55,194 nucleotides of DNA from Gemmataceae bacterium. Lineage in GTDB: Bacteria > Planctomycetota > Planctomycetia > Gemmatales > Gemmataceae. Below are positions 6,434 through 55,194 of the stretch, one piece after another. The stretch covers positions 1-55,194 of the forward strand of contig SHZZ01000022.1 of the NCBI GenBank assembly GCA_009692005.1, written 5' to 3'. Each line of letters starts with the position of its first letter. Within the stretch, counting starts at the first letter, position 1. The notes under the pieces were generated by a model that saw only the letters and a list, made by a program, of their open reading frames with translations, was not told the origin of the DNA and searched no databases. Made by a program: the position numbers and the translations under genes.

Positions 6434-7333
6434 ATGCACCTGGGACTTTTTTCCATCAGTTACGCCGGGTTGTGGGGGCAAGCCAGCCTGGATTTGCCCT
6501 CCTTTCTGGAACGGGCCGGGAAACTTGGCTTCGATTCCGTCATGCTGGCGGGGAAAAGGCCCCACCTTTCTCCACTCGACTACGACAAGGCCAAGCTGGA
6601 AAAACTGAGCGAGTTATTGCGCCTGAACCATTTGCAATGCCCAGTATTGGCGGCGTATGTCGATCTCACCGCCGTGGTGGCCGGGGAGGTCCCCCTGCAA
6701 GAAATGCAAATCCGCTATGTGGAACAGTTGTGCGAAATGGGCGCGGTTCTAGGGGCGAAAATTGTCCGCGTCTTTACCGGTTATGAAACCCCTGGCGCGC
6801 CCTTGCAGAATCAATGGCGGACCGTGGCGCTATGTCTCAGGGAGATGTGCGACCGGGCGGCGGCATTGAATTGCACCCTGGCCTTGCAGAACCACCACGA
6901 CATCGCCGTCCATACCGCGGCGCTGTTGGAATTGCTGGCCGACATCAATCGGCCCAATTGCAAGCTCGGTTTCGACGCCTGGTCGCCTGCGCTCCGGGGT
7001 GAGGATCTTTACCAATCGGCTCTGTTGGCCGCGCCGCACACGGTCATCACCACCAACGCCGACTATATTTTGCTGCCGCGCTTTCGCTATCGTCCGGAGT
7101 TGGTGAACTACGAAAAGGCTTCGCCCGACCTAGTGCGGGCGGTACCCTTTGGCACGGGGTTCATCGACTACAAGAGGTTTTTCGACGGCCTGCGCGAGGG
7201 CGGTTTCACTGGTCTGGCCACCTATGAGATGTGTTCGCCCATTCGCGGCGGCGGGCAGGTGGAGAACCTCGATTCCTTCGCGAAAAGCTATCTGGCCTGG
7301 ATGAAAAAATATTTGGGGCCTGGGCGCCCTTAA
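6434..7333 (+). CDS. Sugar phosphate isomerase/epimerase family TIM-barrel protein
   Basis: A 299-residue protein of the AP-endonuclease-2-like xylose isomerase family (cobalamin/sugar isomerase type TIM barrels). The order of strands is recognisable: MHLGLFSISYAGLWG at the start, MGAVLGAKIVRVFTG near residue 100, LALQNHHDIAVHT around 155 (metal-binding region), CKLGFDAWSP near 180 and FTGLATYEMCSP near 265. No signal peptide, so cytoplasmic. Members isomerise or epimerise sugars, but the substrate cannot be told from sequence. Its stop codon interlocks with that of the dioxygenase on the other strand (4-bp overlap, TTAA). Confidence 0.8.
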   Translation: MHLGLFSISYAGLWGQASLDLPSFLERAGKLGFDSVMLAGKRPHLSPLDYDKAKLEKLSELLRLNHLQCPVLAAYVDLTAVVAGEVPLQEMQIRYVEQLCEMGAVLGAKIVRVFTGYETPGAPLQNQWRTVALCLREMCDRAAALNCTLALQNHHDIAVHTAALLELLADINRPNCKLGFDAWSPALRGEDLYQSALLAAPHTVITTNADYILLPRFRYRPELVNYEKASPDLVRAVPFGTGFIDYKRFFDGLREGGFTGLATYEMCSPIRGGGQVENLDSFAKSYLAWMKKYLGPGRP

Positions 7334-8226
7334 AGAGGGCGGCGCAACCACAGGCGGAGCAGATGCCGCTTTTTTTCTGGCGTTTCATGATCCTGAAACG
7401 CCGTGCGGTTGTGCAAAGTCCAGCGGTTGTTGATGAAATACATGTCCCCCGGTTGCAGGTCGAATTCCACGCGCAACTCGGGCAGGTTGAGGACGCGGTC
7501 GAGTGTGTCGAGTGCGTGAACCTGTGCCGGGGTCAGGGGCTGGCCGCTTTTTTCCTGTCCAACCTCGATCCAATAGCGCAAGTAACGGAAGAGCAATTCG
7601 CCTTGTTCCTGAATCACCGGAAAAGCAATGGTGGGTGAATCGCCTTCCTTCAGGCCTCCCCGGCGGTCGAAAGGAAAGGGCTGTTTTAAAATGGCCAGAT
7701 CTTCCGCATGATTCTTTTTCAGCTCCTCAAGGGCGGAATGCCCGCTAACGATCTGACTGAGCCCGCCGCTCTTGGCCACTTGCAGGCAGAGCAGCCCGAC
7801 ATAATCGAGTATCTCGAGTCCGAAAGAATTGTCGGTGTGGTAGGAGCTGTCATAGTTGGTAACGGAAAAGCGCGCGCCCTGGGCCACATCCTGGCCGGTG
7901 TCGCGGACATCGTAAAGGAGAGCGCCTTGAACATTTTGCATGAAAGGAAGGCCCAGTCCCTGGCCAACTATCCAGTAGAGAAGGCTGGCACAGGCGGGGT
8001 CGAGGGGGTAATCGGGCAACCGCACAATGGCGAACCCCCGGCCATTTTCCAGATCGAAAGCAGTGGATTGCAAGGCTTGCCTGCAGGCGAGGAGGTCGTG
8101 GCTTCCAAGGCGGCAAGAGAGGATATCCGGGGTGTTAATTTTGGCGGAGATGTCCCGGCAAATCTGCGGCAAGGGGTGATACCAGTTTTCTTTCGCGTCG
8201 ATGGTGTCGCGGGTCCAATTGTTCAT
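7330..8226 (-). CDS. TauD/TfdA-like 2-oxoglutarate/Fe(II)-dependent dioxygenase
   Basis: A 298-residue protein with the TauD-family jelly-roll signatures. An H-x-D iron-binding pair occurs in YHTDNSFG, and the distal His and 2-oxoglutarate-binding Arg region is NNRWTLHNRTAF near the C terminus, followed by RHLLRLWLR. TauD-type enzymes hydroxylate small molecules using Fe(II), O2 and 2-oxoglutarate. The substrate is unknown; homologues in this broad group include taurine and gamma-butyrobetaine dioxygenases. A short inverted-repeat element begins a few bases upstream of its start codon and may carry or disrupt its promoter. Confidence 0.87.
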   Translation of the reverse strand: MNNWTRDTIDAKENWYHPLPQICRDISAKINTPDILSCRLGSHDLLACRQALQSTAFDLENGRGFAIVRLPDYPLDPACASLLYWIVGQGLGLPFMQNVQGALLYDVRDTGQDVAQGARFSVTNYDSSYHTDNSFGLEILDYVGLLCLQVAKSGGLSQIVSGHSALEELKKNHAEDLAILKQPFPFDRRGGLKEGDSPTIAFPVIQEQGELLFRYLRYWIEVGQEKSGQPLTPAQVHALDTLDRVLNLPELRVEFDLQPGDMYFINNRWTLHNRTAFQDHETPEKKRHLLRLWLRRPL

Positions 8227-8230
8227 GGGG

Positions 8231-8342
8231 TAAATGGTGTCAGTTCATTTAAAACTGCTCCGGCTTCCGTGGTCGGCCCATGCAGGCAACCTAATTGGGG
8301 ACGAGGTTATTGGCAAAGGAAAAATGAACTGACACCATTATA
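8231..8342. mobile_element. Small inverted-repeat element (MITE/REPIN-like)
   Basis: About 110 bp bounded by an 18-bp perfect terminal inverted repeat: AATGGTGTCAGTTCATTT at 8233-8250 and its reverse complement at 8322-8339. The interior has no coding capacity. The left end with its inner flank (..AACTGCTC) recurs at the right edge of the window (55166-55194). This points to a dispersed, non-autonomous element. Similar terminal hairpin units are mobilised in trans by Y1 (RAYT/IS200-like) transposases in other bacteria; no such gene is in this window, so the mechanism is inference. Confidence 0.7.
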
Positions 8343-8427
8343 CTGGCAGCAATTACGGGGGCCTTGCGCCCGATGACTCCTTGCACTACGCTGTAAACAC
8401 CCTTCAGCAAGTCAAGAAAGGCCGCGA

Positions 8428-8916
8428 ATGAACCCCGAGGGAAAACTCAAGAATTTGCCCATAATTCACCTGACTCTGGTCATGGGCCTGGTAATGTTCC
8501 TCGGCCTAAGCTGGATTCTTAACAAGGACAAGAAACTAATCCTGGATTGGAATCACCCGCTAGTCCTCGTATTGCTGGCAGTTTCTTCAGGCGGCGTGAC
8601 GGCAGCTTTTCTGGTTCCCATGGGAATAGTGGCCAGCAGTTTGAAAAAGTTGGCCCGTAACAAACAAGGGAACGCGGGAACCCTGGCCGACCTTCTCATC
8701 GGCGCGCACATTGCCAGAATGGCCATGTTCGAGGGCCCGGCCCTCTTTGGCCTTCTAGTATTTTTTCTCCATGCCAACCTCGCCGGCCTTTACCTGGCTT
8801 TGATTCTCATAGCGCTGATGGCCGCTCTCTTTCCCTTTCCAGGCAAATCCCTGGAGAAATGGCAATCACTTGAGGAACGCTACCAGCTAATTGTGCAGGA
8901 AGGACAAGGAGTGTGA
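8428..8916 (+). CDS. Hypothetical four-helix inner-membrane protein
   Basis: A 162-residue protein with about four hydrophobic segments, near residues 12-31, 43-67, 100-116 and 118-137, and a short charged C-terminal tail. I recognise no catalytic motif. It resembles in outline the small membrane proteins with a conserved helical core that have no assigned function. It is the first gene of a compact operon: the following pseudopilin-like gene starts 2 bp after its stop, then come a lipoprotein and a DUF1761 protein. This suggests a role at the membrane linked to those products, but no function can be given. Confidence 0.8.
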   Translation: MNPEGKLKNLPIIHLTLVMGLVMFLGLSWILNKDKKLILDWNHPLVLVLLAVSSGGVTAAFLVPMGIVASSLKKLARNKQGNAGTLADLLIGAHIARMAMFEGPALFGLLVFFLHANLAGLYLALILIALMAALFPFPGKSLEKWQSLEERYQLIVQEGQGV

Positions 8917-8918
8917 CC

Positions 8919-9905
8919 ATGAAGGCCAGAATAGGATTCACCCTGATTGAATTGCTGGTGGTGATCGCCATCATCGCCGTGCTGATTGGCATGCTATTGC
9001 CCGCTGTGCAGAAGGTGCGCGAGGCGGCGTCGAAAACCCGCTGCCAGAATAATCTGAAACAGATCGGCCTGGCTTTGCACAATCACCTGGCCGCCATGGG
9101 GCACTACCCCAGCGTGTCGGAAATGCCCAAGAACCAGTTGTCGCAGCCGTGGTCGGGGCACGCCCGTTTGCTGCCCTACTTGGAACAAACCAATTTGCAT
9201 AACCTGATCGACTGGAAGACGGACATGAACAATTTCACGACCCGGCCTGATGTGGCGAAAATGCGCATCGCTGTCTACCTTTGCCCGTCGGAAATCAACG
9301 ACCGCCCGCGACAGACGCCGAACATCACCTATTACCCGCAAACCTATTGTTTCAACGAGGGCACCTGGTTCATCTACGATCCGGTGAGTGAAGCGGGAGG
9401 CGACGGAGCGTTTGTGCCGAACAAAAAGATGCGGGTGGCGGATTTTGCAGACGGCATGAGTTTCACCCTTGGCGCCAGTGAAACCAAAGCGTACCAGGCG
9501 AACCTGTGGGACACCGGCAAGCCCGCCACGCTGGGTGTGGCCGCGCCAGCCACGCCTGCCGCCTTGCTGGCCTACGCCGGCGGCACCTTCGATCAGAACG
9601 GCCATACGGAATGGGTGGAGGGCGATGTGCATGAAACCGGATTCACCACCACCTTTCCTCCCAACACGGTCGTGCCCCATACAGTGGCGGGGCAGGTTTA
9701 CGACATCGATCTCACTTCCATGCGCGATGGCGAATCGATCACGCTTCCCACTTACGCTGCCATCACTGCCCGCAGTTACCACAGCGGCATGGTGAACTGC
9801 CTGTTCATGGACGGGTCGGTGCGGTCGGTGGCCAATGGCATTCAACAATCGGTTTGGCGGGCGCTGGGCACCCGCGGTGGAAGTGAACCCGTGGGCGATT
9901 TTTAA
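8919..9905 (+). CDS. DUF1559 protein with type IV pilin-like N-terminal methylation motif
   Basis: A 328-residue protein with the prepilin signature [14 protein letters not shown] at residues 6-19 followed by [16 protein letters not shown], then the Cys-Gln-Asn-Asn-Leu-Lys-Gln-Ile-Gly stretch typical of DUF1559. The C terminus carries the usual YHSGMVNCLFMDGSVR motif. Planctomycetes carry very many such proteins; they are thought to be processed like pseudopilins and to sit on the cell surface, but their role is not established. ATG 8919 is preferred to GTG 8913 because AAGGAG lies 7 bases before it. Confidence 0.93.
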   Translation: MKARIGFTLIELLVVIAIIAVLIGMLLPAVQKVREAASKTRCQNNLKQIGLALHNHLAAMGHYPSVSEMPKNQLSQPWSGHARLLPYLEQTNLHNLIDWKTDMNNFTTRPDVAKMRIAVYLCPSEINDRPRQTPNITYYPQTYCFNEGTWFIYDPVSEAGGDGAFVPNKKMRVADFADGMSFTLGASETKAYQANLWDTGKPATLGVAAPATPAALLAYAGGTFDQNGHTEWVEGDVHETGFTTTFPPNTVVPHTVAGQVYDIDLTSMRDGESITLPTYAAITARSYHSGMVNCLFMDGSVRSVANGIQQSVWRALGTRGGSEPVGDF

Positions 9906-53447: not shown

Positions 53448-55067
53448 TTAAAAGTGTCCGCCCGGCTTAATCACGGCAAAACCCCGGAAATTCTTGCAAT
53501 AAGTAAAGTGCCAAACGCTGATCGGCTGGCCTTTTTCTTGATAGTAAAATGGGGCAAGATCCACAACCTCGGCGAAGCCTTTCCGCGCCTCGGCCGACAA
53601 CGAACCCACCACCAGGAAATCCTTACCGAGAAAATCTTTGGGGTTGTCCACCGGGTTTTTCCATAAGTCGTATTGGCTGTGGCGGTCGCCATTGACCAGC
53701 CCGATGGAATAAGCCTGTGGTCGACCCTGGCAGTAAAAGCCAATTTCCCCAGGCACATTCCAACTGCCACCTGCCAGGACCAGTTCCGTTGACCTGCCTT
53801 GCGTGATTTCTTTTCGTCGCCTGTCCACTTCCTTGCCCAGGCTTTGCCAGCCGCGAAGCCTGCAAGTGGGATCGACCTTGCGCAGGGGGAAGGGGTTTTT
53901 TTCATTCGGAGTTCCCGCCAGCGCCACCAGCGCCGGGCGAATTAGCTCCGTTTGATGGGCCACCACGGCCAGGGTCAACCCCAGCAAGGCAAAGCCGCAG
54001 ATCAGAAATCGCGATGCCAACCGCGTGCGCTCCAGCGCGTGGTTCCACAATTCCACAATTAATCCGCCCATCAAGACCAGGCCGGAGAGGTATGCGGTGA
54101 TCGGCCAATTGATTTCTCCTCCGCCTGTTTTTGGGCTGAAAACGAAGAAGACAAAAAAGGGCGCCGCGGATATCCACCAGAGGTAATTCAATTTTGGCGT
54201 GGCAGTGGCCCACGGGTTGAATCTCCACATGGCCCAGGCCCACACCACGAACCAAAATCCCAAGAGCAGGGCGAATTGCTGTCCGAGGTAAACCAGCGGC
54301 CCCGTCCAATGAATTCGCGGACCATCGTGCATGCCGGCCAGGGCGCTGACATGGTGGAAGGAAACCCAGCCGTTTTGAATATTCCAAATCAATATGGGTG
54401 AAGCGCAAAGGGCGGCGGTGATTCCCATGACCCATGGCCCGGCCTGGAGCAGGCGTTTTCTATCGGTAGAAAAAAGCAGGTAAAAGAACAATCCGCCTAG
54501 CCAAAGGATCATGGTGTACTTGGCCAGAATGCCGATGCCAATGGCTACTCCGCCTGCGGGCCAGGCCCAGCTCTTGTTTTCAAAAAGCGCCATATGGCCA
54601 AAGACCAACGCCCATACCCATGCGCAGGTGTAAGGCGAGTCGATGGTAATGAGAGATGAAGCGGCGGCAACTGGGGGTATGGTCAGCGATAATGCCGTGA
54701 GAAAGAAAGCGAGTTTGCTGTTCAAGGTTTTTTCGCCAAGAAGGTAAATGCCCCAGAGCATAAGGCTGCCGCACACTACCGCTGGCAGGCGCACCGCTGG
54801 CATTTCCGTCCCGCTTAAGCTGACGGATAATGGCCCGAAGAGTTCTGTCCCACCCCGAATCAACCAGGCCACCAGGGGACCCTTGCTGTAGTAGCTCCAA
54901 TCCAAATGCCGGGACCAATCCCAATAGTGGGCTTCGTCCGGAGCGAGGTCCAGCGGGCAAAAGAAGAGAAGATAGAGGATATGCGCGGCGGCTGAGAGGA
55001 GGATTAACCCCGCAGCCAGCAAACGGTATTTTCCCGAGTCTTCCTGTTTTTCCAGCTCCACACTCAT
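53448..55067 (-). CDS. Glycosyltransferase family 39 membrane protein
   Basis: A 539-residue protein with about 10-12 hydrophobic helices. After the first helix it has the acidic pair of GT39/PMT-like enzymes in LAPDEAHYWDWSRHLDWSYYSKGP, then VRLPAVVCGSLMLWGIYLLG and ITIDSPY. Such enzymes take sugars from polyprenyl phosphate. A C-terminal domain of ~140 residues (from ~400) is partly soluble. The start is ATG 55067, with AAGGAAG before it. It belongs to the same class as the protein at 22362 but differs in the acidic motif. The acceptor is unknown. Confidence 0.88.
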   Translation of the reverse strand: MSVELEKQEDSGKYRLLAAGLILLSAAAHILYLLFFCPLDLAPDEAHYWDWSRHLDWSYYSKGPLVAWLIRGGTELFGPLSVSLSGTEMPAVRLPAVVCGSLMLWGIYLLGEKTLNSKLAFFLTALSLTIPPVAAASSLITIDSPYTCAWVWALVFGHMALFENKSWAWPAGGVAIGIGILAKYTMILWLGGLFFYLLFSTDRKRLLQAGPWVMGITAALCASPILIWNIQNGWVSFHHVSALAGMHDGPRIHWTGPLVYLGQQFALLLGFWFVVWAWAMWRFNPWATATPKLNYLWWISAAPFFVFFVFSPKTGGGEINWPITAYLSGLVLMGGLIVELWNHALERTRLASRFLICGFALLGLTLAVVAHQTELIRPALVALAGTPNEKNPFPLRKVDPTCRLRGWQSLGKEVDRRRKEITQGRSTELVLAGGSWNVPGEIGFYCQGRPQAYSIGLVNGDRHSQYDLWKNPVDNPKDFLGKDFLVVGSLSAEARKGFAEVVDLAPFYYQEKGQPISVWHFTYCKNFRGFAVIKPGGHF

Positions 55068-55165: not shown

Positions 55166-55194
55166 TAAATGGTGTCAGTTCATTTTAACTGCTC
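55166..55194. mobile_element. Left end of a second inverted-repeat element, cut by the window edge
   Basis: TAAATGGTGTCAGTTCATTT (55166-55185) and then TAACTGCTC match 8231-8260 except for two small differences in the A/T run after the terminal repeat. This is the same outer end as the element upstream of the TauD-like gene. It lies about 100 bp upstream of the start of the GT39 gene. Confidence 0.7.

Follow-up and report, generated by a model that had tools for sequence, protein, structure and literature searches.

The window, the whole stretch of 55,194 nucleotides analysed here, is the complete contig C32 of the 4.19-Mb, 99-contig genome of a Gemmataceae bacterium. It carries a short inverted-repeat element 5' of a dioxygenase gene and one end of a second copy at the contig edge. 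The features are as follows.

7330-8226, minus strand: TauD/TfdA-family dioxygenase gene, with its ATG at 8226, 6 bp from the repeat
8231-8232, no strand: TA adjoining the stop-side end, held from its flanks to be part of the element's end and not a target duplication
8233-8250, plus strand: terminal inverted repeat that descends from the stop-side (3'-type) end of the RAYT ancestor and is itself a palindrome (AAATG..CATTT)
8249-8281, minus strand: relic frame MGRPRKPEQF plus stop, read from the sequence and the parent termini as the RAYT start-codon region fused to the last codons
8251-8321, minus strand: interior, an internally deleted RAYT element (element positions 40-103 and 1-46 correspond to 73-9 and 664-619 of the copy on contig C86)
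8322-8339, minus strand: terminal inverted repeat that descends from the start-side (5'-type) end of the RAYT ancestor
8428-8916, plus strand: 162-aa reading frame, a divergent neighbour without a Pfam match
53448-55067, minus strand: PMT_2 (GT39-type) glycosyltransferase gene, a membrane protein, with its ATG at 55067, 100 bp from the edge copy
55168-55194, plus strand: second copy, stop-side end, cut by the contig edge

Beyond the 162-aa frame, 8913-9905 encodes a type-IV-pilin-like N-terminal helix and is presumably DUF1559-like, a kind of protein that we take to be common in planctomycetes. A search of the window placed AATGGTGTCAGTTCATTT without mismatch at 8233-8250 (+), 8322-8339 (-), and 55168-55185 (+); in dinucleotide shuffles of the window, the 18-mer matched 0.02 times on average at up to 3 mismatches. 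The 71 bp between the arms (8251-8321) contain no gene, and the 11-codon relic frame alone was noted there. The edge copy shares the inner flank AACTGCTC with the first copy, and the contig ends 9 bp past its 18-mer; since the window is the whole contig, this copy is cut by the assembly. The earlier note had described an 18-bp perfect inverted repeat around about 70 bp without a gene, 5' of a TauD-like gene, and a second end with its inner flank at the window edge, 5' of a GT39 gene. All of this was confirmed.

As RNA, the complete element folds into a single long hairpin (-43.3 kcal/mol, z -4.9). A consensus search at 8100-8460 found no sigma-70-like promoter or terminator. With 6 bp between it and the TauD start codon, and with its strong hairpin, the window copy might affect neighbouring genes. 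A strong hairpin just 5' of a start codon would also suit a conserved regulatory RNA or leader, a possibility raised by the earlier note. However, no Rfam family matched up to an E-value of 5, the copies are dispersed beside unrelated genes, and the interior is derived from a transposase. A regulatory RNA is therefore extremely improbable.

In the whole genome, the 18-mer occurred 28 times exactly and 48 times at up to 2 mismatches, 24 on each strand; the reversed-pattern control gave 0 matches in the same genome. By our own grouping, these ends fall at about 32 places, so the two sites of the window are not the only ones. In sixteen copies, 70-228 bp long, the two ends lie no more than 250 bp apart. 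L034 counts as a further two-ended copy when a slightly gapped end is accepted, and several copies have one end missing. Thus, the family has the features of a miniature inverted-repeat transposable element (MITE), being short, non-coding, bounded by inverted ends, and dispersed in many copies. BLAST with one whole copy gave 37 genome matches. Inspected by eye, the interior-bearing ones adjoin an end, and no clear interior match without an adjoining end was seen among the 37, save pieces of copies already counted. The exact 18-bp end was present in 3 of 95 genomes of the family, the genome studied here included. Five exact matches including the TA were found in named genomes; four belong to Planctomycetota or unclassified bacterial MAGs, and the fifth, in Acidaminobacter, looks like a chance match.

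At four copies, L008 (C23:61697), L040 (C86:23060-23084), L035 (C58:8276), and L185 (C22:323-373), the end of another multicopy insertion sequence, presumably ISNCY-like, directly follows the element end. The junctions read ..CATTTTTCCG or close variants, then TGTC[AT]TCCAC...TAGAAATGNCCCC, a pattern with 60 genome matches against 1 for the control. Either this insertion sequence repeatedly inserted there or a composite was mobilised.

The origin of the copies can be read from their interiors. Translated, these give the N-terminus MGRPLRPSADGLIYHAINRGNNRDAVFARP and a C-terminus ending in RGRPRKAEQK, both of which we take to be typical of RAYT transposases. A composite of the interior pieces found 13 places in the same genome and RAYT-like genes in 11 of the 101 other genomes of the order that were searched. 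The composite also pointed to C86:26344-27006, where a copy of 663 bp retains both ends and includes the HUH motif NHFH and a YLEANP motif; its transposase frame is broken by one stop and a frame change. Its match to NF047646 (REP_Tyr_transpos; E 4.1e-14, 52.7 bits) is below the cut-off of 80, which even an intact relative, the L068 protein, misses (62.8). Pfam Y1_Tnp alone does not recognise it (E 0.069, 13.7 bits against a cut-off of 23). In 15 of the 16 two-ended copies, sequence from both parts of the C86 copy, start and stop, is recognisable; the sixteenth, L035, is a chimera. In the window copy, positions near the start codon are joined straight to the last codons, which yields MGRPRKPEQF plus stop on the minus strand (8281-8249). 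GGCCGACC-like stretches occur in both parent sequences at this junction; since such repeats lie on both sides, the deletion likely arose by slippage or microhomology between them. The alignment shows a 12-bp deletion, flanked by CAATCGCG repeats, that is common to several other copies. Substitution in the N-terminal relic was 0.168, 0.120, and 0.194 at codon positions 1, 2, and 3, a weak bias.

The earlier note proposed that the element was mobilised by a Y1 transposase whose gene would be flanked by the same end. Such a gene exists in the broken C86 copy, and like ends surround RAYT genes of relatives. An intact RAYT of the C86 type was not found by profile search of the assembly; several copies are close to contig ends, at which the assembly may have collapsed repeats. 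The sole Y1_Tnp match of the genome, a gene on contig C29, carries none of these ends and was set aside as one of another Y1 group. Because the interiors differ by 16% on average and the sole RAYT of this type that was found is broken, the family is probably immobile in this genome now, although intact copies might hide at contig breaks.

Among relatives elsewhere in the phylum, L068 (genome G029) encodes an intact 227-aa Y1_Tnp protein (Pfam, E 1.2e-16) between inverted AAAGGTGTCAGGACCCTTT ends about 735 bp apart. The MITEs thus share their ends with a broken gene at home and resemble the ends of an intact one in a relative. Pairs of GGTGTCAG or GTGTCAG surround the RAYT loci L061, L123, L125, L129, L137, and L140. 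Such pairs were present at 2 of 44 RAYT loci in a first set and 5 of 29 in a second, from which L138 was discounted as its pair is placed unlike the others; they were absent from the other 42 and 24. A de novo search for terminal repeats covered 41 of the 73 loci, the 32 without an open RAYT frame by our filter being left out. Counted by eye, GGGG[AT]C or GGTGTC occurred in the terminal repeats of 18 of the 41. In most of the remainder, and above all in the best NF047646 matches, long REP-like palindromes take their place.

Di Nocera et al. (2013; PMC3733652, available in part) named RAYT-like genes between such repeats TIRYTs, or TIRtron. According to the same part, many of the terminal inverted repeats (TIRs) carry GGGGWSAS, some are self-complementary, and they are also dispersed singly, as dimers, or in groups. 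A RAYT-like Y1 gene between TIRs is what we observed at C86 (broken), at L068 (intact), and at the six RAYT loci above, and the dispersed dimers are a further likeness. The family differs from the published part of the TIRYT description in its core, GGTGTCAG, which is one letter off GGGGWSAS, in dimers that still hold recognisable pieces of the transposase gene, and in a parent that is broken in this genome. The L034 copy reads GGGGTCAG at the core, and relatives carry GGGG[AT]C. The accessible portion of PMC6006769 places 20 of 26 TIRYTs in TnpAREP subclass 2.1, which is defined by a C-terminal helix-turn-helix. In L068, the one protein tested, Pfam found no such helix-turn-helix, only Y1_Tnp and a sub-threshold AT_hook (11.2 bits, cut-off 17.4). 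The family is not filed under subclass 2.1. The AT-hook match is RGRPRK, in which the RAYT C-termini of L068 and of genome G000 end; this tail might contact the A+T-rich ends. A sequence search for relatives of the L068 RAYT with solved structures returned none at E up to 1.

Two side observations concern these relatives. The outer ends of L123, L140, L049, L051, and L052 stand in short tandem (e.g., AAAAGGTGTCAGGGAAGAAAAGGTGTCAGG), which suggests repeated cutting or insertion at the same end. Genome G040 holds MITEs of the same kind (L044 and L046), apparently with the RAYT C-terminus alone inside. Its profile search gave no REP_Tyr_transpos match, and these MITEs are another orphan family.

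Each end is palindromic, AAATG-GTGTCAGTT-CATTT here and AAAGG-TGTCAGGAC-CCTTT in L068; the two halves of the stem thus vary in concert. Folded as single-strand DNA, the best end variant reached z -5.1 and three others -1.3 to -1.5. In 14 aligned copies, pairwise divergence per site was 0.032 for the start-side end, 0.091 for the stop-side end, and 0.159 for the interior; as copies were mostly found through their ends, the conservation of the ends is partly ascertained. The family resembles the REPINs described in the part of PMC3116915 (Bertels and Rainey, 2011) at hand in having two inverted imperfect palindromes in one long hairpin, in being non-autonomous, and in its link to a RAYT, which is evident from the C86 copy and the RAYT-derived interiors. 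It departs from that description in that the spacer is derived from a RAYT and the copies fall at about 32 places, not hundreds. The GTAG tag is absent from the 18-bp end, so these are not two inverted GTAG-tagged REPs. Of the earlier reading as a MITE/REPIN with a Y1 transposase, the dispersed MITE, its transposase-derived interior, and a RAYT with like ends hold, but a REPIN in the strict sense does not, the ends being of the TIRYT type with GGTGTCAG.

The outer flanks bear on how the copies inserted. Directly outside the 18-mer, A was found at 46 of 49 ends, and T before it at 45 of 49. A TA next to nearly every end is what a classical DDE MITE of the IS630/Tc1-mariner kind, which duplicates TA on insertion, would leave. 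IS630-derived MITEs (Correia, RUP), as far as they are described in the part of PMC2817692 seen, also resemble the family in size and inverted ends. However, the two flanks differ. Among 50 ends, AATA flanked 17 of 24 stop-side ends and 2 of 26 start-side ends (Fisher p 5e-6). As a duplicated target would match on both sides, at least the stop-side TATT(Y) probably belongs to the element. Only the start-side TA(A) can then probably be target, and the start-side TA could be part of the element too. The interior and the parent are, moreover, RAYT and not IS630 sequences.

Stop codons at the junctions argue in the same direction. We examined 46 flanks for long frames, defined as at least 110 codons reading toward the element, and found one in 30. 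Eleven of these frames end exactly in a TAA made of TA and the first A of the element (two, L019 and L022, are doubtful genes), 9 have their stop within 25 bp before the element, 4 run into it, and 6 end further off. In 8 of the 9 frames testable from both sides, undoing a TA duplication by deleting one TA would leave a sense codon where the junction stop now stands, the exception being L019; L019 and L022 are again the doubtful genes. Homologues of three proteins were compared, a dipeptidase on C38 (19), an ABC-F protein on C30 (19), and an esterase on C4 (15 of 19 readable by pattern). For each of the three, the junction stop coincides with the usual C-terminus or is a few residues from it, apart from a few homologues with longer tails. 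By these indirect tests, flank asymmetry and stop codons, we rejected a TA target duplication, and an IS630-type MITE is very unlikely.

The copies cluster at gene stop codons. After the 4 run-on flanks were dropped, 11 of 42 flanks were junction-like and 20 of 42 junction-like or near, against 46 and 74 of 344 background TAA sites in the window whose longest frame is not run-on (binomial p 0.02 and 1.6e-4). If the host retained the copies, whatever their origin, because they serve at gene ends, for example by terminating transcription in both directions or stabilising mRNA, this would account for the single long hairpin and for the 20 of the 46 flanks in which a stop codon is at the element or no more than 25 bp ahead of it. 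Yet gene avoidance combined with a TA(A) target gives a largely similar pattern, several copies lack one of their ends, and the window copy is 5' of TauD instead of 3' of a gene, with no terminator-like site found at 8100-8460. We consider such a function unlikely.

The flank polarity is, judged from the known mechanism of the family, that expected of IS200/IS605 elements. The available text of PMC8266576 describes IS200/IS605 transposition as single-stranded and strand-specific, with guide sequences. A single-tyrosine HUH transposase, hairpin ends, end polarity, and an apparent lack of target duplication are common to these elements and the present family; however, the ends are inverted repeats here, and the part of PMC2817692 seen describes IS200/IS605 as without terminal inverted repeats. 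Long target dyads around the insertions were rejected (complementarity score 5.03 against 4.69 permuted, p 0.095), and direct repeats in the flanks were not significant (p 0.73), both in 17 two-ended copies. A search for an empty site via paralogous flanks found none; the sole useful match, L019 against L008, diverges at the insertion.

Taken together, 8233-8339 is, with high probability, a MITE formed by internal deletion of a TIRYT-type RAYT element (a single-tyrosine HUH transposon) whose inverted hairpin ends were kept. We regard as established the dispersal, the common ends, the RAYT-derived interior, the broken near full-length parent, and the relatives in which an intact gene is arranged in the same way. 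In the proposed course, a TIRYT-type RAYT transposon would lose most of its transposase gene internally and keep both inverted ends. The gene-less derivatives would spread while a RAYT acting in trans recognised those ends. It would cut and join them in single-stranded form, as IS200/IS605 elements do, with no duplication of the target, and insertion would occur downstream of TA(A), often the stop codon of a gene. The family would have become immobile in this genome with the loss of the last intact RAYT. A wider joint proposal is tentative and less likely than not: that the copies record a traceable intermediate stage in how REPIN-like repeats arise, in which a TIRYT sheds its gene stepwise via short direct repeats and its end pairs then multiply, and that the RAYT of this clade is a genuine mobile enzyme of the IS200 type, inserting directly behind TA(A), with no duplication, and so hitting stop codons.

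This is a MITE family of a known kind and an informative added member. We found no description of RAYT-derived dimers that retain gene pieces in the portions of the RAYT, REPIN, TIRYT, and MITE literature searched. The origin of REP-type repeats is an open question; their descent from the ends of IS200-like elements is a suggestion only in the part of PMC3116915 seen. The dimers described here keep both termini of the RAYT gene, and the step from a gene-bearing element to a gene-less repeat is therefore directly readable. With the intact relatives of the clade, cleavage of terminal inverted repeats by TIRYTs could be tested directly, in an experiment of the sort proposed by the authors of PMC3733652 in the part available. 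The family shows how such tiny repeats can be born.
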